Shown: piece by piece, positions 50,255 through 59,348 of the stretch | How the letters are laid out: each line of letters starts with the position of its first letter | Position numbering within the stretch: the stretch's first letter is position 1 | Origin: Variovorax sp. 54 | Lineage (GTDB): Bacteria; Pseudomonadota; Gammaproteobacteria; Burkholderiales; Burkholderiaceae_C | Assembly (NCBI RefSeq): GCF_002754375.1 | Contig: NZ_PEFF01000001.1 | Span: forward strand, 992,001 to 1,056,000 | Reading direction: 5' to 3' | Length of the DNA: 64,000 bases | Notes under the pieces: model-generated | Database searches by the model: none | What the model was told of the DNA's origin: nothing | What the model saw: only the letters and a program-made list of their open reading frames with translations | Program-made: the position numbers and the translations under genes

Positions 50255-50635
50255 CTATTCCGCGCCCAGGCTCCACTCGACTTCGGAAGTGCCTTCTTGT
50301 GGCTCGACGGTGCCCTGGATCTGCTCCTTGAGCTTCGCACTCGCATGGAAGGTGGCCACGCGGCGCTCGCCGATCGGAATGGCTTCGCCGGTGCGCGGGT
50401 TGCGCCCAGGACGCGGCGCCTTCACGCGGATCTGGAAGTTGCCGAAGCCAGAGATCTTCACGTCCGTGCCTTCGATGAGGCTACCGGCGACGAGCTCGAA
50501 GAACGCCTCCACCATGTCTTTCGACTCACGCTTGTTCAGGCCGATCTGCTCGAACAGCAGGTCGGCCAGGTGCGCCTTGGTAAGCGCCGGCGTTTCGAGG
50601 GCTTCGAGCGTGAATTCGGCGGCGTTCATCTTCAT
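50255..50635 (-). CDS. ihfA: Integration host factor subunit alpha
   Basis: 126 residues, longer than the E. coli 99 because of extra residues at both ends. LTKAHLADLLFEQIGLNKRE followed by SKDMVEAFFELVAGSLIEGT, GFGNFQIRVKAPRPGRNPRT and GEAIPI contain the HU/IHF DNA-bending arm with the intercalating Pro in RPGRNPRTGE. It heterodimerises with IhfB. The ATG overlaps the pheT stop in ATGA, as in E. coli, where pheT and ihfA are also adjacent. Confidence 0.96.
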   Translation of the reverse strand: MKMNAAEFTLEALETPALTKAHLADLLFEQIGLNKRESKDMVEAFFELVAGSLIEGTDVKISGFGNFQIRVKAPRPGRNPRTGEAIPIGERRVATFHASAKLKEQIQGTVEPQEGTSEVEWSLGAE

Positions 50636-53073
50636 CCTCTCAAGCGGCCGCCCAGGGTGGCGCCCAGTTGTTCGACGATTGCACGGACAGCAGGTTCGAC
50701 CTGCTCGTCCGTCAGCGTGGCGACATCGCTCTGGAAGGTCAGGCGCACGGCCATGCTCTTCTCGCCCGGCGCCAACGCACCCGGCGCGGCGACTGCGCCT
50801 TCACGCAAGGGCTGCGGACGGTAGATGTCGAACAGCGTTGCATCCCGCAGCAGGCCCGAGGCGGACGCGCCCGCGCGGATGGCCTGCATCAGCGCATCGT
50901 GCGTCACCGCTTCGGCCACGACGACCGCGATGTCGCGCTCGACAGCCTGAAGCTTCGGCACCGGCTGTGCCACGGGCACGGGCCGCGCCGTGACGGCGTC
51001 GAGGTCGAGTTCGAAGAGCACGGGCGCTTGCGTGAAGTCCCACTTCTGGCGCCAGCGCGGATGCAGTTCGCCGATGAAGCCCACGGCCTGGCCATCCAGC
51101 AGCACGCGGGCCGAACGGCCAGGGTGCAACGCCGGATGCTCGGCCACTTCGAAGGTCGGCACGCGCGGCGCGAGCAGCGCCTCGACATCGCCCTTGACGT
51201 CGTAGAAGTCGGCGCGCTGCGGCTTGCCGTCCCAGCGCGACGCCTCGGCATCGCCCCAGGCGAGGCCTGCCACGCGCATGGGCTGATTCACGCCGCGCAC
51301 GGTGCTGTCGGTGGTGACGACGCTGTCGTCGCGCAGGAACACGCGGCCCAGCTCGAACACGCGCACGCGCGGCGCCTTGCGGTCGAGGTTGAACTTGAGC
51401 ACCTGCAGCAGCGAGCCGAGCAGCGACGAGCGCATCACGCTCATCTGGCTGGCGATGGGGTTCAGCAGCTTGACCGGGTTGGCGTTGCCCGCGAGGTCCT
51501 GCTCCCAGTGCGCTTCGACGAAGCTGAAGTTGATGGTTTCCTGGTACCCCAGCGCTGCGATGCTGCGACGCACGGCGAAGCGGCTGCGCTGTGCTTCGGG
51601 TCGCACACGGGCGGTGATGGGCGCGAGCGGCGCGGTCGTCGGCAGGTTGTTGAAGCCGATCAGGCGCGCCACTTCTTCGATCAGGTCTTCCTCGATCAAC
51701 AGATCGAAGCGGTGCGGCGGCGGCGTGACGGTCAACGTGCCTTCGCCTTCGACGAGGGCGAAGCCGAGGCGGTTGAGCGCGTCGGCGCATTGCGCCTGCG
51801 TCAGCGGCATGCCGATGACGCGCGCGGCGCGGGCCACGCGCAGCGTGACGGGCGCGGCGTCGGGCAGGCGCAGCGTCTGGTCGTCCATCTTGCCGGCTTC
51901 GCCGCCGCAGATCTCGACGATCAGTTGCGTGATGCGCTCGATGATCTGCACCGTGCGGCTCGGGTCGACACCGCGTTCGTAGCGGTGGCCGGCGTCGGTC
52001 GAGAAGTTGAAGCGGCGCGAACGGCCTTGCACGGCCTCGGGCCACCAGAAGGCGGCCTCGACGTAGATGTTGCGCGTGTCGTCGGAGACCGAGGTGGCAT
52101 CGCCACCCATGATGCCGGCGAGCGATTCGACTTCGCGGTCGTCGGCGATGACGCCGACTTTTTCGTCGACGGTGATCGTCGTGCCATTGAGCAGCTTGAG
52201 CTGTTCGCCCGCCTTGCCCCAGCGCACCGTGAGGCCGCCGTGGATCTTGTCGAGGTCGAAGATGTGGCTGGGCTGGCCGTACTCGAACATCACGTAGTTC
52301 GAGATGTCGACCAGCGGCGTCACGCTGCGCTGGCCGCAGCGCGCGAGGCGCTCGACCATCCAGGCCGGCGTCGCGACCTTGGTGTTCACGCCGCGCACGA
52401 TGCGGCCGGAGAAACGACCGCACAGGTCAGGCGCTTCGACCTTGACGGGCAGCACATCGGAGAACGACGTGGCCACGGGCGCGATGGCCGGCGTCTTCAG
52501 CGGTGCGCCGGTGAGCGCAGAGAGTTCGCGCGCCACGCCGTACACGCAGAGGCCGTGCGCCAGATTGGGCGTGAGCTTGAGGGTGAGCAGCGCGTCGTCG
52601 AGCTTGAGCACGTCGCGCACATCGGCGCCGAGGGGCGCATTCGCGTCGAGCTCGAGCAAGCCGCCGTGGTCTTCGCTCAGGCCGAGCTCGCGCGCCGAGC
52701 ACAGCATGCCTTCGCTTTCAACGCCGCGCAGCTTGCCCAGCTTGATGAGGAAAGGCTTGCCGTCTTCACCCGGCGGCAGTTCGGCGCCGACGAGGGCGCA
52801 CGGCACCTTGATGCCGACGCGCGCATTGGGCGCGCCGCACACGATGTTCAGCAAGGCACCCTGCCCCACGTCGACCTGGCACACGCGCAGGCGGTCGGCG
52901 TTCGGGTGCTGCACGGCTTCCTTGATTTCGCCGACCACGATGCGCGTGAAAGGCGGCGCCACCGGACGGCGCTCTTCAACCTCGAAGCCGCCCATGGTGA
53001 GCGTTTCGGCCAGTGTGGCGCTGTCGAGGGGCGGGTTGCAGAACTCGCGCAGCCAGGATTCCGGGAATTGCAT
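50632..53073 (-). CDS. pheT: Phenylalanine--tRNA ligase beta subunit
   Basis: 813 residues, full length. An N-terminal tRNA-binding OB domain (VVGEIKEAVQHPNADRLRVC) is followed by the B3/B4 editing domain with LVDISNYVMFEYGQP. The B5 domain (PPPHRFDLLIEEDLIEEVAR) and the catalytic-like core follow, and a C-terminal ferredoxin-fold anticodon-binding domain (AVRLTFQSDVATLTDEQVEP) closes the chain. It forms the alpha2-beta2 enzyme with PheS, encoded 50 bp upstream. Confidence 0.97.
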   Translation of the reverse strand: MQFPESWLREFCNPPLDSATLAETLTMGGFEVEERRPVAPPFTRIVVGEIKEAVQHPNADRLRVCQVDVGQGALLNIVCGAPNARVGIKVPCALVGAELPPGEDGKPFLIKLGKLRGVESEGMLCSARELGLSEDHGGLLELDANAPLGADVRDVLKLDDALLTLKLTPNLAHGLCVYGVARELSALTGAPLKTPAIAPVATSFSDVLPVKVEAPDLCGRFSGRIVRGVNTKVATPAWMVERLARCGQRSVTPLVDISNYVMFEYGQPSHIFDLDKIHGGLTVRWGKAGEQLKLLNGTTITVDEKVGVIADDREVESLAGIMGGDATSVSDDTRNIYVEAAFWWPEAVQGRSRRFNFSTDAGHRYERGVDPSRTVQIIERITQLIVEICGGEAGKMDDQTLRLPDAAPVTLRVARAARVIGMPLTQAQCADALNRLGFALVEGEGTLTVTPPPHRFDLLIEEDLIEEVARLIGFNNLPTTAPLAPITARVRPEAQRSRFAVRRSIAALGYQETINFSFVEAHWEQDLAGNANPVKLLNPIASQMSVMRSSLLGSLLQVLKFNLDRKAPRVRVFELGRVFLRDDSVVTTDSTVRGVNQPMRVAGLAWGDAEASRWDGKPQRADFYDVKGDVEALLAPRVPTFEVAEHPALHPGRSARVLLDGQAVGFIGELHPRWRQKWDFTQAPVLFELDLDAVTARPVPVAQPVPKLQAVERDIAVVVAEAVTHDALMQAIRAGASASGLLRDATLFDIYRPQPLREGAVAAPGALAPGEKSMAVRLTFQSDVATLTDEQVEPAVRAIVEQLGATLGGRLRG

Positions 53074-53123
53074 CTCTTCGATCTCGATCTGTTTTTCTGG
53101 TTTGGAAAGGGCGTGTCAGTGAA

Positions 53124-54200
53124 TCACTGGAACTGCGAGAGAAAACGCAGGTCGCCGTCGAAGAAGAGGCGCAGGTCGTTCACGCCGTAGCGCAGCATCG
53201 TGAGCCGGTCGGGGCCCATGCCAAAGGCGAAGCCGATGTAGCGCTCGGGGTCCAGGCCCATGTTGCGCACGACGTTCGGGTGCACCTGGCCCGAGCCGGC
53301 AACTTCGAGCCAGCGGCCGGCCAATGGGCCGCTCGCGAACTGGATGTCGATCTCGGCGCTCGGCTCGGTGAACGGGAAGAAGCTCGGGCGGAAGCGCAAC
53401 ACGAGGTCGTCGCGCTCGAAGAAGGTGCGGCAGAAGTCAGTGAAGACGACCTTCAGGTCCTTGAAGCTCACGTTCTCGCCGAGCCACAGGCCTTCGCACT
53501 GGTGGAACATCGGCGAGTGGGTGGCGTCGCTGTCGACGCGGTAGGTGCGGCCCGGTGCGATGACGCGGATCTCGGGCGCCTTCACGGTGCCGGTGGCGTC
53601 GGCGGCAGCAGCTGCGAACTCGGCCGCGTACTTCTTGGTGTGCTGGTGGGCGTAGCGCACCTGCATCGGGCTGGTGTGCGGACGCAGGTTGTAGGGAATG
53701 CCGTCGTCGCCCTTGAGGTCGACGTAGAAGGTGTCCTGCATCGAACGCGCCGGATGGTTCGGCGGGTTGTTCAGCGAGGTGAAGCTGTGCCAGTCGCTCT
53801 CGATCTCGGGACCGTCAGCCACGTCGAAGCCCATGCTCGAGAAGATCTCTTCGATGCGCTCCAGCGTGCGGCTCACGGGGTGCAGTCCACCGCCGGCGCG
53901 GTGGCGGCCGGGCAGGCTCACGTCGAGCGCTTCGGCGCGCAGTTGCAGCGAGAGTTCTTCGTCGGCGAGTTGCTGGCGGCGGTCGGTCAGTGCGGCCTCG
54001 ATGGCCTGCTTGCCGACGTTGATCGCGGCGCCACGGGACTTCTTCTCTTCGACACTCAGCGCGGCCATGCCCTTCATCAGCTCGGTGATGCGGCCCGACT
54101 TGCCAAGGAACTGGGCCTTGGCGTTTTCGAGCTCTGCGGGCGTTTTCGCTTCGGCGAAGGCGGCGCGTGCGGTGTCGACCAGGGAGTCCAACTCGTTCAT
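53124..54200 (-). CDS. pheS: Phenylalanine--tRNA ligase alpha subunit
   Basis: 358 residues from ATG 54200 ([12 protein letters not shown]). An N-terminal coiled-coil (residues about 1-80) binds tRNA, and the class II core follows: [17 protein letters not shown], motif 2 with [36 protein letters not shown] and motif 3 [14 protein letters not shown]. Catalyses Phe-tRNA charging with PheT. Preceded by rplT and an internal terminator hairpin (54227-54260). Confidence 0.97.
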
Positions 54201-54226
54201 AGCAACAAAAATCTTCGAGGGGAAAT

Positions 54227-54260
54227 AAAAAAGAGCTGGAGCCTTTTCAAGCGCCAGCCC
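54227..54260 (-). terminator. Internal terminator/attenuator between rplT and pheS
   Basis: On the minus strand GGGCTGG pairs with CCAGCTC (one G-U pair) and is followed by six Ts at 54232-54227. It lies 27 bp upstream of pheS. A second hairpin GCCGTC-TTCG-GACGGC with a stable UUCG loop is at 54281-54296. Partial termination would lower pheST relative to ribosomal genes. No leader ATG is seen, so peptide-based attenuation is unlikely here. Confidence 0.6.
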
Positions 54261-54312
54261 TTGAGCCGTGGGCGCAAGAAGCCGTCCGAAGACGGCGACC
54301 TGCTGTGCAAGA

Positions 54313-54672
54313 TCAAGCAGCCAGCTTGGCCTTGACCTGCTCCACGATGCCGGCAAAAGCGGCCTTGTCGTGCACGGCGATGTCCGCAAGCATCTTGCGG
54401 TCGATCTCGATACCGGCCTTGCGGATGCCATTGGCGAACTGGCTGTAGGTCAGGCCCAGTTCACGCGAGGCGGCGTTGATACGCGCGATCCACAGCTGAC
54501 GGAACACGCGCTTCTTGGTACGACGGTCACGGTAGGCGTATTGCCCAGCCTTCATCACCGCCTGTTTGGCGACGCGGAAGACATTACCGCGGCGACCGCG
54601 AAAACCCTTGGCGAGTGCGAGAACTTTTTTGTGGCGGGCGCGAGCCGTTACACCACGTTTGACGCGAGGCAT
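54313..54672 (-). CDS. rplT: 50S ribosomal protein L20
   Basis: 119 residues, full length. [40 protein letters not shown] and [20 protein letters not shown] are the L20 signature. It binds 23S rRNA early in 50S assembly and in several bacteria represses its own operon. Lies 24 bp after rpmI. Confidence 0.98.
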
Positions 54673-54696
54673 GTGTTTACTCCTTGTTCGTCTGAA

Positions 54697-54900
54697 TTAA
54701 ATGCCACGGCCGGGCAGCATGGCGGCGACAGAAACCATGTTGGTTTCATGCACTGCGACTGCACCACGCAGGTGACGCTTGTTCTTGGTGGTCTTCTTCG
54801 TCAAGATGTGACGCTTGAAGGCTTGACCGCGCTTGACGGTGCCACCGGGACGAACGCGGAAACGTTTTTTCGCGCTGCTCTTGGTCTTCATTTTGGGCAT
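54697..54900 (-). CDS. rpmI: 50S ribosomal protein L35
   Basis: 67 residues. [20 protein letters not shown] and [20 protein letters not shown] are the L35 pattern. Between infC and rplT in the usual order; preceded by an AAAGGAGCATTCAT-type ribosome site. Confidence 0.97.
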
Positions 54901-55053
54901 ATGAATGCTCCTTTAGTTTGTGCTCGTGAGGCGCCGCGGATACTCCACGGACTTGTTGGCCCCGAGACACTTCTTTATCTCGCCCCCGCCTGCACTTCTT
55001 TCGAAATGCGGGCCAGGGCGAAATCCCTTCAAAACCCGTCTACTGCAAATGCC

Positions 55054-55668
55054 TCAGGCGGTTGCCGTGGGCGCTGCTGCCGGCGCAGCATCTGCAGCCG
55101 GCTTCGGCGCCGCGCTGCCAACCTTCTTGCGGCCCGGCGCGATCATCATGATCATCTGGCGGCCTTCCAGCTTCGGGAACTGCTCGACCATGATCGTGTC
55201 GCCCAGTTCGTCGCGAATGCGCTGCAAGAGTGCCAAACCGAGCTCCTGGTGCGTGATCTCGCGGCCGCGGAAGCGCAGCGTGATCTTGCATTTGTCGCCC
55301 TCTTCAAGAAAGCGCTTGATGTTGCGCATCTTGATGTTGTAGTCGCCATCGTCGGTACCGGGCCGGAACTTGATTTCCTTGACCTCGATGACCTTCTGCT
55401 TCGACTTCGCCTCGGCTGCCTTCTTCTGCTCGTGGTACTTGAACTTTCCGTACTCGATCAGGCGGCACACGGGCGGATTGGCCGCAGCAACGACCTCCAC
55501 CAGATCCACATCGGCCTCGCCAGCAAGGCGCAAGGCCTCCGAGAGACTCATAACACCCATTGGCTCGTTTTCCGGGCCTACAAGGCGGACTTCCGGGGCC
55601 ATGATTTCCCGGTTCAGGCGGTGTTGGCGTTCCTCGCGGTGGCGGCGGTCGCGAAATGCAGTAGCGAT
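55054..55668 (-). CDS. infC: Translation initiation factor IF-3 with ATC start codon
   Basis: 204 residues if started at the ATC at 55668, which has an AAGGA site 8-9 bases upstream. It gives [20 protein letters not shown] before MAPEVRLVG, matching the normal IF-3 N-terminus. The first ATG (55602) would cut off conserved residues. Rare start codons such as AUU are typical of infC and allow IF-3 to regulate its own translation (established in E. coli). The body has [20 protein letters not shown] and [20 protein letters not shown]. The C-terminal tail is Ala/Pro-rich. Confidence 0.95.
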
Positions 55669-55779: not shown

Positions 55780-57687
55780 TCAACGCTTGTCAGCAACGTC
55801 CTGGACGAGCCGTTGCGTGAACGATTCGAGGGACATTGCACCGAGGTCTTGATTGCCCCGGGCGCGCACTGCGACGGCACCTGCTTCCTTTTCCTTGTCG
55901 CCCACGACGAGGATGTAAGGGAGCTTTTGCAACGAATGCTTCCGTATTTTATACGTAATCTTTTCGTTGTGCAGGTCGAGCTGGACCCTAAGCCCTTGAT
56001 TTTGCAGCGTTTTCGCAACTTGCGCAGCGTAATCGGCCTGTCCTTCGCTGATATTGAGCACCGCCACCTGCACCGGAGCGAGCCATGCGGGCATCGCGCC
56101 GGAGTGGTGTTCGATGAGCATGCCGATGAAGCGCTCGAGGCTACCGACGATGGCGCGGTGCAGCATCACCGGGTGGGCGCGGCCGCTCGATTCCGTCACG
56201 TATTCGCCGCCGAGGCGCTCGGCCGTGTTGTAGTCGACCTGCATCGTGCCGCACTGCCAATGGCGGCCCAACGCGTCGCGCAGCGTGTACTCGATCTTCG
56301 GGCCATAGAACGCGCCGTCGCCGGGCGCAATCACGAAATCGACGCCCGAGCGGCGCAGCGATTCCATCACCGCGTGTTCGGCCTTGTCCCAGAACTCATC
56401 GGAGCCGACGCGGTTCTCGGGCCGCGTGGCGACCTTGTAGAGGATGTCCGTGAAGCCGAAATCGGCATACACCTTCTGCAGTTGCGCCGTGTACGCGATG
56501 CACTCGTCGAGGATCTGGTCTTCCGTGCAGAAGATGTGACCGTCGTCCTGCGTGAAACCGCGCACGCGCATGATGCCGTGCAGCGCGCCGCTGGGCTCGT
56601 TGCGATGGCACTGGCCGAACTCGCCGTAGCGCAGCGGCAGGTCGCGGTAGCTGCGCAGGTCGCTCTTGAAAATCAGCACATGGCCCGGGCAGTTCATCGG
56701 CTTGAGGGCGTACTCGCGCTTCTCGGATTCCGTGACGAACATGCCTTCGCGGTAATTCTGCCAATGGCCCGTTTTCTCCCACAGGCTCTTGTCGAGAATC
56801 TGCGGACTCTTCACTTCCCAGTAGCCCGTGTCGCGGTAGATGCCGCGCATGTACTGCTCGACCTGCTGCCAGAGCGCCCAGCCCTTGGGGTGCCAGAACA
56901 CCACGCCCGGCGCCACTTCGTCGATGTGGAACAGGTCGAGTTCCTTGCCCAGCTTGCGGTGGTCGCGCTTCTCGGCTTCCTCGATGCGCTGGATGTACTG
57001 GTCGAGTTGCTTCTTGTCGGCCCAGGCCGTGCCGTAGATGCGCTGCAGTTGCTCGTTCTTGGCGTCGCCGCGCCAGTAGGCGCCGGCCAGCTTCGTGAGC
57101 TTGAAGACCTTCAGGAAGCGCGTGTTCGGCACGTGCGGGCCGCGGCACATGTCGACGTATTCCTGGTGGTAGTACAGGCCCATGGCCTGCTCGTCGGGCA
57201 TGTCTTCGACGAGGCGCAGCTTGTAGTCTTCGCCGCGCGACTTGAAGACCTCGATGACCTCCGCACGCGGCGTCATCTTCTTGACCACGTCGTAGTCCTG
57301 CGCGATCAGCTCGCGCATGCGCGCCTCGATGGCGGCCATGTCTTCGGGCGTGAACGGGCGCTCGAACGAGATGTCGTAGTAGAAGCCTTCGTCGATCACG
57401 GGCCCGATCACCATCTTGGCCGTCGGGTACAGCTGCTTCACCGCGTGGCCGACCAGGTGGGCCGTCGAGTGGCGAATGATCTCCAGGCCCTCGTCGTCCT
57501 TGGGCGTGATGATCTGCAGCTTGGCATCGCGGTCGATGACATCGCTGGCATCGACGAGCTTGCCGTCGACCTTGCCGGCCACCGTCATCTTGGCGAGGCC
57601 GGGGCCGATGGATTGGGCCACTTCGGCCACCGAAACCGGGCCGGGGAACTCGCGGCGCGAGTTGTCGGGGAGCGTGATCTGGATCAT
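55780..57687 (-). CDS. thrS: Threonine--tRNA ligase
   Basis: 635 residues, full length. N-terminal TGS domain ([20 protein letters not shown]), editing domain with [16 protein letters not shown] and GFYYDI, class II core with [30 protein letters not shown], and [20 protein letters not shown] (motif 3). The C-terminal anticodon-binding domain has [20 protein letters not shown]. It heads the thrS-infC-rpmI-rplT-pheST operon and follows a putative attenuator leader. Confidence 0.98.
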
Positions 57688-57710
57688 GTGAAAACCTCGG
57701 GGAGAAAAAC

Positions 57711-57773
57711 AAAAAAGCGCGGTGGATGCCGCGCTTTGCTTGGTTGGTGCGCTGGAAAAACCAGCGAGCGCGG
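57711..57773 (-). promoter_or_regulatory. Attenuator hairpins in the thrS leader
   Basis: On the minus strand CCGCGCT at 57773-57767 lies two bases past the leader-peptide stop. A hairpin CGCTGG-TTTTT-CCAGCG at 57766-57750 follows, then AGCGCGG at 57735-57729. The terminator GCGCGG-CATCCA-CCGCGC (57734-57717) with six Ts at 57716-57711 comes last. CCGCGCT can pair perfectly with AGCGCGG, excluding the terminator. This is the antiterminator/terminator switch expected for ribosome-mediated attenuation. Confidence 0.7.
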
Positions 57774-57775
57774 GG

Positions 57776-57841
57776 CTACCGGCCCTTTCCTTCGAAGAAG
57801 AAAAAGCCGCCGAATCCTTGCGGGGTAGTTCGCGGTGTCAT
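57776..57841 (-). CDS. Putative thrS-operon leader peptide, 21 aa, Thr- and Phe-rich
   Basis: A short frame opens at ATG 57841 with AAAGG 10 bases upstream and stops at TAG 57778-57776. Thr codons are at positions 2, 5 and 6, and Phe codons at 10 and 13-16 (four in a row). The stop is directly before the antiterminator arm. Stalling at the Phe run would leave that arm free, whereas termination at the stop would cover it. The arrangement is what one expects of a leader for an operon encoding both ThrRS and PheRS. In E. coli the pheM leader is directly before pheS instead. Confidence 0.65.
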
Positions 57842-57942
57842 AACCAAGGTGCCTTTCTCGCTCTTGTTGAGTGCAGAGTCGGCGATTCTAGCCGCTGCCT
57901 GTGCGGGCCGTGGGACCGCGCCCATTCGTCGGAACGCCCACG

Positions 57943-57966
57943 AAAAAGCCCGGCACGGAGCCGGGC
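57943..57966 (-). terminator. Intrinsic terminator of aceA
   Basis: GCCCGGC-TCCGT-GCCGGGC on the minus strand followed by five Ts (57947-57943), 50 bp after the aceA stop. Confidence 0.85.
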
Positions 57967-58016
57967 TCGGGGGCGACAGCGCAGCGCGCCGTCACTCAGC
58001 GATCAGCGAAGGCAGC

Positions 58017-59348
58017 TCAGTGGAACTGCTCTTCTTCGGTCGAGCCGGTCAGCGCCTTCACGCTGGATGAGCCACCCTGGATCACGGTGGTCACGTCGTC
58101 GAAGTAGCCGGCGCCGACTTCCTGCTGGTGCGACACGAAGGTGTAGCCCTTGTCGCGTGCGGCGAACTCGGGTTCCTGCACCATGTTCACGTAGTGCTTC
58201 ATGCCTTCGCCGCGAGCGTAGGCGTGGGCGAACTGGAAGGTGTTGAACCAGTTGATGTGGATGCCGGCCAGCGTGATGAACTGGTACTTGTAGCCCAGCG
58301 CCGACAGGTCTTCCTGGAACGAGGCGATCTGCTTGTCGTCCAGGTTCTTCTTCCAGTTGAACGACGGCGAGCAGTTGTACGACAGCAGCTTGCCGGGGCA
58401 GGCGGCGTGCACGGCTTGCGCGAACTCACGGGCGAAGCCGATGTCGGGCACGCCGGTTTCGCACCACACCAGGTCGGCGTACGGGGCGTAGGCGACGCCG
58501 CGGCTGATGGCTTGCTCCAGGCCGTTCTTGACGCGGTAGAAGCCTTCTTGCGTGCGCTCGCCCGTCAGGAAAGGCTTGTCGTTGGCGTCGTGGTCGGACG
58601 TGATCAGGTTCGCAGCTTCTGCATCGGTGCGGGCCAGAACGATGGTCGACACGCCCATCACGTCGGCAGCGAAACGTGCCGAGATCAGCTTCTCGCAGGC
58701 CTCCTGCGTCGGCACGAGCACCTTGCCACCCATGTGACCGCACTTCTTGACGGCAGCCAGCTGGTCTTCGAAGTGCACGCCGGCAGCGCCCGACGCGATC
58801 ATGTTCTTCATCAGCTCGAAGGCGTTCAGCACGCCGCCGAAGCCAGCTTCCGCGTCGGCCACGACCGGCAGGAAGTAGTCGATGAACTCCTTGTCGCCCG
58901 GGTTGATGCCGCGGCCCCACTGGATTTCGTCAGCGCGCTTGAACGTGTTGTTGATGCGACGGACCATCGTCGGCACCGAGTCGTAGGCGTACAGCGACTG
59001 GTCGGGGTACATCGTTTCCGAGGTGTTGCCGTCGGCGGCGACTTGCCAGCCCGACAGGTACACGGCTTCCAGGCCGGCCTTGGCTTGCTGCATGGCCTGG
59101 CCGGCGGAGATCGCGCCGAAGGCGTTCACGTAGCCCTTCTTGGCACCGCCGTTGATCTTGTCCCAGAGCTTTTCAGCGCCGCGCTTGGCCAGCGTGTGCT
59201 CGATGGGGAGCGAACCGCGCAGGCGAACCACGTCGGCTGCGCTGTAGCCGCGCTTCACGCCCTTCCAGCGCGGGTTGGTGGCCCAGTCCTTTTCGAGGGC
59301 GGCAATTTGCTGTTCGCGGCTCAGTTGTTCGTTCAGGGTCTGGGGCAT
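58017..59348 (-). CDS. aceA: Isocitrate lyase
   Basis: 443 residues from ATG 59348 (CGGAG upstream). Active-site loop KKCGHMGGK with catalytic Cys is present, plus [20 protein letters not shown] and [11 protein letters not shown]. It cleaves isocitrate to succinate and glyoxylate in the glyoxylate shunt, needed for growth on acetate and fatty acids. It is monocistronic with its own terminator and an unusually palindrome-rich promoter (59421-59512). Confidence 0.97.

Follow-up and report, generated by a model that had tools for sequence, protein, structure and literature searches.

A candidate threonine-sensing leader-peptide attenuator upstream of thrS in Variovorax and other Burkholderiales

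The element and its operon

The element described here lies on the minus strand of the window (the whole 64,000-nucleotide stretch of Variovorax sp. 54 DNA that was analyzed), behind an isocitrate lyase gene and before thrS. A first-pass annotation of this site had proposed an attenuator that reads both Phe and Thr; we recomputed every position from the window sequence and found its coordinates all correct. From the presumed promoter to the end of the gene row, the features are as follows.

57885..57890, minus strand: -10-like TAGAAT, presumed promoter
57850..57866, minus strand: conserved 5' part of the leader, CAAGAGCGAGAAAGGCA, including the Shine-Dalgarno-like GAGAAAGG (57859-57852)
57828..57845, minus strand: near-invariant block GGTTATGACACCGCGAAC, with the rare Thr codon ACA, the Arg codon CGA and the start of the Thr codon ACT; contains segment 1
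57776..57841, minus strand: leader open reading frame, 21 amino acids, ATG at 57841, stop codon TAG at 57778-57776
57780..57809, minus strand: hairpin CGGCTTTTTCTT / AGGAAAGGGCCG, with the Phe codons in its 5' arm
57767..57773, minus strand: segment 2, candidate antiterminator arm CCGCGCT, exact complement of segment 3
57750..57766, minus strand: hairpin CGCTGG-TTTTT-CCAGCG between segments 2 and 3, folded in the window
57729..57735, minus strand: segment 3, terminator 5' arm AGCGCGG, from the consensus terminator scan and folding
57711..57722, minus strand: segment 4, CCGCGCT (57722-57716), running into six T (57716-57711)
55780..57687, minus strand: thrS (NCBIfam TIGR00418), first gene behind the putative attenuator
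50255..55602, minus strand: infC, rpmI, rplT, pheS, pheT and ihfA (NCBIfam), downstream of thrS on the same strand
54227..54260, minus strand: terminator-like hairpin before pheS, GGGCTGG..CCAGCTC followed by T6, found by eye

The leader carries Thr at codons 2, 5 and 6 and Phe at codons 13-16, as had been described, and a further Phe at codon 10. The arm that begins two bases past the leader stop (CCGCGCT, 57773-57767) is perfectly complementary to AGCGCGG (57735-57729), and the U6 terminator stands 23 bases before the thrS ATG (57687). A consensus terminator scan recovers this terminator with 9 pairs (57737-57714); on both strands of 57600-58100 there are 2 terminator-like sites, compared with 0.7 ± 0.8 in shuffled sequences. 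A consensus fold of 87 distinct genus leaders (RNAalifold) also contains the hairpin between segments 2 and 3. Upstream, a TANAAT motif starts 48-68 nt 5' of the leader ATG in 93 of 97 genus leaders, so transcription probably begins upstream of the leader; a scan for the full sigma-70 consensus gave no site there. By eye, a string identical or similar to CAAGAGCGAGAAAGGCA precedes the leader ATG in many relatives.

All seven genes behind the element (thrS, infC, rpmI, rplT, pheS, pheT and ihfA) are recognized by NCBIfam models above cut-off, and their order and spacing suggest that they are co-transcribed. Inspection by eye shows a hairpin and, behind it, a T-rich tract in the gap between rplT and pheS, both in the window and in all 20 relatives examined (L001-L008, L013, L027, L030, L034, L036, L038, L040, L045, L056, L058, L068 and L071); it is imperfect in four of them (L008, L027, L056 and L058), and its inner part, GCTTGAAAAGGC, recurs in several. 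Leader control would take in thrS-infC-rpmI-rplT and, given this terminator-like hairpin between rplT and pheS, only perhaps pheST-ihfA as well. The rplT-pheS hairpin may itself gate pheST separately. A second, Phe-rich leader before pheS was considered and rejected, as inspection of the window gap by eye revealed no Phe-rich reading frame with an ATG start.

The leader frame in the genus and in the order

We searched 101 genomes of the genus for GGTTATGACACCGCGAAC with at most two mismatches and read one leader in each matching genome (n = 97). We take the genus to be Variovorax, the source of the named thrS sequences closest to that of the window (97% and 96%). The block was found in 97 of the 101 genomes, and in 87 of the 87 that are at least 90% complete. 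Nearly all of these leaders (96/97) begin with MTPRTT, and their stop codons are TAG (87), TAA (9) or TGA (1). When segment 2 is used as an anchor defined regardless of frame, 96 of the 97 leaders have it in frame with their ATG, the distance taking seven values from 48 to 72 nt; this would be expected if selection acts on a translated leader whose stop codon lies next to segment 2. The first-pass annotation had named absence of the leader frame from related genomes as evidence against its proposal; the frame is kept in these 96 leaders, which supports the view that it is under selection. One genus member (L125) is without the leader frame, its ATG reading on beyond the usual stop site.

Related leaders occur well beyond the genus. 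In a sample of 399 Burkholderiales genomes, 91 match the block pattern, and we read 70 of these places in 70 genomes (the 21 matching genomes left unread include G434, a perfect match). Fifty-seven of the 70 places, among them every zero-mismatch place that was read, lie 117-284 nt before thrS; these include the window itself (L195) and a further genus member (L194), and they fall into nine family codes (f1, f3, f7, f9, f22, f31, f34, f38 and f46). The remaining 13 places are not before thrS, twelve of them being two-mismatch matches and one a one-mismatch match (L211). The leader peptides of the order begin M-T-P-(R/L)-T, once M-T-A-R-T, and their tails vary. All 73 distinct leaders from outside the genus have Thr at codons 2 and 5, both of which the search motif favours, and 39 have it at codon 6 and 24 at codon 7; some families retain only two Thr codons. 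Our script recognized a terminator behind 65 of the 77 leaders outside the genus.

To look past the motif, we took 60 thrS-anchored regions from genomes with no motif match at thrS. A short reading frame with an in-frame CGA-ACN in codons 2-7 is present in 13 of these, compared with none on the reverse complements and a mean of 0.4 (at most 2) over 200 shuffles. In these diverged leaders Thr is the commonest residue (41/141), and no other Arg codon occurs in the place of CGA; they include MSFRTTTTGTLNQG, MAVRTTTTHP, MFKRTTTTRISR, MQLNRTTTTS, MQRTSTKTITYLG and MTLRTCTKH, with the reservation that one member is doubtful (L273) and two are near copies (L312 and L313). Two further diverged leaders do without CGA: L257, MTPLTYTAGEFFQP, and L286, MRPPTTSFTRLPG. 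In total, 18 family codes have a leader, that of L273 being uncounted. About 45 of the 60 regions show no recognizable leader.

The loci without this leader bear on a simpler possibility, namely that the element is a plain promoter-proximal terminator, or a processed small RNA, whose leader reading frame goes unused. Among Burkholderiales-like thrS loci picked by title, 11 of 35 have no block, and such blockless loci often still show, by eye, a terminator before thrS; many other loci of the order consist of tRNA-Val, terminator and thrS, with no recognizable leader. ARAGORN, run on 42 of the 60 thrS-anchored regions, placed tRNA-Val(GAC) upstream in 40 (hence in at least 40 of the whole set of 60, L256-L315), so thrS may share the tRNA promoter at these loci. 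An untranslated RNA is not expected, however, to keep, at seven lengths, a reading frame that stops at segment 2 in all but one of 97 leaders, or to hold rare Thr codons fixed, and we consider this explanation highly improbable. The selected frame, the related leaders across the order and the terminator behind most of them instead support the proposal of a leader-peptide attenuator before thrS. We put the probability that it is a ribosome-mediated transcription attenuator sensing charged Thr-tRNA at roughly 80%.

The search was also run on 365 genomes that belong to the class but not to the order; it returned 3 one-mismatch matches, none with thrS on the fetched stretch. Nine Xanthomonadales-like thrS loci, so assigned by title (L009-L012, L015-L018 and L028), show by eye a very short leader of another kind, for instance MSTTTDHR, MSTTIAHC, MRTTAAHR and MDTTRSQR; TT is present in 8 of the 9, the leader of L018 being MSTINV. 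These follow a strongly conserved stretch ending in GAGCGTGCGACATG, with a terminator-like hairpin after the leader in most (by eye), and two of the loci (L010 and L016) gave no Rfam match at cut-off. Such loci would represent a second, unrelated-looking Thr leader. In Pseudomonas and Stutzerimonas (L020, L029, L033, L035, L039 and L041) the thrS 5' region is again strongly conserved, in another form ending in CACCACTAGGAGAGGAGGCGCCATG; inspection of these six loci by eye showed no obvious attenuator.

Phe codons and the hairpin arm

According to the first-pass annotation, a ribosome stalled at the Phe codons would expose the antiterminator arm and one reaching the stop would hide it; a single leader might gate the whole operon and read two amino acids. 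Within the genus, a stall at either Thr or Phe codons would then switch on an operon encoding both ThrRS and PheRS. The gene row, which includes pheST, fits such an arrangement, as do the frequent occurrence of FFF (51 of 96 in-frame genus leaders), the presence of Phe in 90 of 97, and a Phe share of codons 7 and beyond that is 16.2% in the genus and 6.2% outside it. The folding of the window RNA agrees too: a ribosome at Phe codon 16 frees segment 2, the antiterminator being the best fold even when segment 4 is out. The Phe run itself, on which that stall would depend, is not conserved. FFFF is found in 24 of 97 genus leaders, and of the 73 distinct leaders outside the genus 3 contain Phe-Phe, so that the conserved run of Phe codons that marks a pheM-type attenuator is not there, and the Phe half of the proposed sensor was not borne out. 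Seven of the 97 leaders have no Phe at all.

The alternative is that the run reflects the RNA rather than the peptide. In the window, the hairpin ends just before the stop codon, with codons 13 and 14 paired, codon 15 partly paired and codon 16 in the loop. Of 30 distinct regions, 28 write FFF as TTTTTCTTC, the spelling that pairing requires, and the unpaired fourth Phe is freely replaced: among 50 leaders the codon after GFFF encodes F in 24, T in 12, V in 10, I in 2 and E in 2. Other clades of the genus hold a hairpin at the same place without the run, as in L095 (GGTCTTTTCC pairs with GGAAAAGGCC), L103 (CGGCCGCTTCC with GGAAGAGGCCG) and L083 (GGCGCTTCC with GGAACGCGCC).

Covariation within the genus points to a hairpin that is kept by pairing and not by residue. 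In the 20-codon class, a gap-free set of 38 distinct leaders (a length at which only one FFF leader occurs), 89.9% of cells pair, compared with 82.7% in shuffles (reached by 0 of 500); there are 22 further pair types versus 15.7 (0/500), and both sides have changed in 7 of 12 pairs (23/500). The 21-codon class, with 17 distinct leaders and the length of 28 of the 51 FFF leaders, varies little: pairing is 93.2% versus 91.2% in shuffles (0/500), with both-side changes in 2 of 13 pairs (84/500) and a number of further types reached by 309 of 500 shuffles. Because the shuffles ignore relatedness, these figures are an indication only.

Folding against synonymous-codon shuffles discriminates less well. 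The native sequence is among the lowest 15 of 300 in 29 of 71 distinct regions, and leaders with FFF exceed their shuffles by more (median z of -2.2, compared with -0.7 without FFF), a difference that fits either a sensor or a hairpin. The seven Phe-less leaders rank 256, 27, 186, 76, 236, 272 and 90 among 300, four of them folding no better than the median shuffle. Since this test is weak in leaders without FFF, the case for the hairpin rests on the covariation. The FFF label, placed on a 97-row thrS tree (270 columns, few supported branches), needs at fewest 3 changes, which is compatible with a single origin.

We conclude that the Phe run is probably no second sensor, and more likely a by-product of the pyrimidine arm of an RNA hairpin. 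A conserved role in Phe sensing was rejected on the genus-wide set, where FFFF is in the minority and the arm is kept by pairing. Together with a possible single origin of FFF on the tree and the terminator-like hairpin before pheS, this makes a dual Thr and Phe sensor unlikely; the FFFF clade specifically may respond to Phe. A run of one amino acid in a leader peptide may thus be the shadow of an RNA hairpin.

Thr codons, the invariant block and the proposed switch

The conserved Thr codons of the leader are unusual ones. In seven genes of the window, ACA and ACT each account for 1 of 116 Thr codons, which makes them the rarest for this amino acid, and CGA accounts for 1 of the 172 Arg codons; the three amount to 2.3%, 2.8% and 2.8% in the thrS genes of 24 relatives. 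In the leaders, all 97 genus members have ACA at codon 2, as do 76 of 77 others (the search motif favours it). At codons 5 and 4, where the motif is partly responsible, ACT is found in 97/97 and 67/77 (ACG in 10), and CGA (window 57832-57830) in 97/97 and 69/77 (CTG in 5, CGG in 3). CGA also precedes the core Thr in 13 of 13 diverged leaders, CGA-ACN being the pattern by which these were selected.

The preference for CGA could have a basis in decoding. All 47 tRNA matches of the window genome were given to ARAGORN, which returned the Arg anticodons ACG (two genes), TCT, CCT and CCG and the Thr anticodons GGT, TGT and CGT. As there is no TCG tRNA-Arg among the 47, CGA must be read by the ACG tRNA, in which A34 would become inosine, and I-A pairing would slow decoding. 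With CGA in the P site, poor I-A pairing might make the ribosome wait at the A-site Thr codon unless Thr-tRNA is plentiful. Such a codon-pair device would explain the preference for CGA, and also how two Thr codons can be enough for attenuation; leaders with CTG or CGG in this place argue against CGA being essential, and we offer the idea as a tentative one that is more probably wrong than right.

The block around these codons is conserved more tightly than codon sensing would seem to require. In 24 thrS-anchored leaders, 16 of the 18 columns of GGTTATGACACCGCGAAC are invariant, and since eight columns were used for finding the block, the relevant figure is 8 of the 10 others. By comparison, thrS itself, at the same 24 loci, offers 34 four-fold codons whose residue does not vary, and the third base varies at every one of them. 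The block GTTATGACACCGCGAAC hardly varies, silent sites included, and more than amino-acid sensing seems to be holding it in place. Pairing was rejected as the reason for the whole block, as the terminator arms vary between families (GCGCGG, GTGCGG, GCACGG and ACGCGC) while the block is constant; pairing with segment 2 accounts for CGCGAAC in part only, and we noticed no compensatory change in a small GUU...AAC hairpin that spans the start codon.

Near-invariance at silent and untranslated positions alike would fit a block that serves, on the RNA, as a binding site for ThrRS or for another product of the operon such as IF3 or L20, with the reading frame secondary, and E. coli ThrRS is reported to regulate its own expression (PMC2965389), likewise a feedback on thrS. 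Yet the diverged leaders lose most of the block and retain a short reading frame with CGA-ACN, often with more Thr, and where the block is present the frame and stop are kept and a terminator follows. Autoregulation by a bound protein is for these reasons an improbable account of the element.

Taking Thr attenuation as the preferred reading, we infer the following switch from the arrangement of the segments; the start site, leader translation, stalling, antitermination and the response to Thr are all parts of this model. RNA polymerase would start about 35-40 nt before the leader, and a ribosome would begin translating it. If Thr-tRNA is short, the ribosome would wait at Thr codons 5 and 6, at the rare ACU that follows the rare CGA, covering segment 1 and leaving segment 2 available for pairing with segment 3; the terminator could then not form, and transcription would run on into thrS and the genes behind it. 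With ample Thr-tRNA, the ribosome would reach the stop and cover segment 2, segments 3 and 4 would pair, and transcription would stop. With no ribosome on the leader, segment 1 could pair with segment 2, and the terminator would form too. In the genus, the hairpin would stand between the Thr codons and the stop, its arm happening to read Phe in one part of the genus.

Folding of the window RNA up to segment 3 is consistent with this scheme, giving the antiterminator fold with a ribosome at codon 6 and the terminator with one at the stop. Once segment 4 is out, the terminator is preferred even under a Thr stall, by 1.8 kcal/mol (-39.0 versus -37.2), and the ribosome-free RNA up to segment 3 folds 2:3, not 1:2; the switch would therefore have to be kinetic, as attenuator switches elsewhere are. 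In 45 of the 65 leaders with a recognized terminator, the best partner of segment 3 starts 0-13 nt past the last sense codon; it starts earlier in 16 and later in 4. Against shuffles, the 2:3 pairing has a median z of -1.1, being more than 1 sd better in 33/65 and more than 2 sd in 11/65, while the 1:2 pairing is weaker (median -0.7; below -1 in 23/65, below -2 in 9/65).

Rfam offers no counterpart for the element at cut-off. At gathering score no family was found in it, including Thr_leader (RF00506) and T-box, and neither of these is among the 8 matches that 57650-58000 gave at E values up to 5. Two of the matches overlap the element on the same strand, Trp_leader (15 bits against a cut-off of 41, E 2.2) and ncS025 (13.9 bits against 46, E 4.9), and both were dismissed as chance-level. 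Eight related loci gave only tRNAs at cut-off, and no T-box.

Several known systems share part of the proposed design. In the thr operon leader thrL of enterobacteria (Rfam RF00506), Thr codons control the terminator of Thr biosynthesis; the window leader would have the same control of a terminator by Thr codons, without a match to RF00506 and before thrS instead of the biosynthetic genes. E. coli ThrRS binds its own leader mRNA at a translational operator, a control by protein-mRNA binding as opposed to the leader-peptide attenuation proposed here. The leader peptide of the pheST attenuator is pheM. That attenuator, known from gamma-proteobacteria (PMC1262725), resembles the one proposed here in its ribosome-mediated mode and in its gene neighbourhood; it senses Phe and precedes pheS, whereas here the leader precedes thrS and the conserved residues are Thr. 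In Bacillota, tandem T-boxes control thrS, also as thrS-infC-rpmI-rplT, and thrS is induced when tRNA-Thr is uncharged, as it would be here, but the T-box RNA reads the tRNA directly, with no leader reading frame, and in another phylum (PMC12452182). The nearest counterpart is in Streptomyces lividans, for which leader-peptide attenuators of synthetase genes have been described (thrL-thrS, MKRVRPFLETTPGFVPAR; trpL2-trpS; leuL2-leuS). Its thrL is a short leader with two Thr codons upstream of thrS for which attenuation was proposed; it belongs to another phylum and is unrelated in sequence, and its authors report for it one hairpin, no U-rich tract and a leaderless start (PMC8079986). Since a Thr leader before thrS has been described there, the kind of regulator is already known. 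For Burkholderiales or Xanthomonadales, a search of PMC found no thrS leader peptide, and the available portions of PMC4833913, PMC2659441 and PMC2965389 name none. Going by its title, a paper by Lopatovskaya et al. (2010; doi 10.1134/S0026893310010164) may predict such sites.

If the proposal is right, many members of a large order would control thrS, together with IF3 and two ribosomal proteins, by the charging of Thr-tRNA. A single terminator would set this control, perhaps also over PheRS and IHF-alpha. The near-invariant block and the preference for CGA raise a directly testable question, how codon context tunes ribosome stalling. The leader would also constitute another solution to the regulation of thrS, besides the binding of ThrRS to its mRNA in E. 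coli and the T-boxes of Bacillota.
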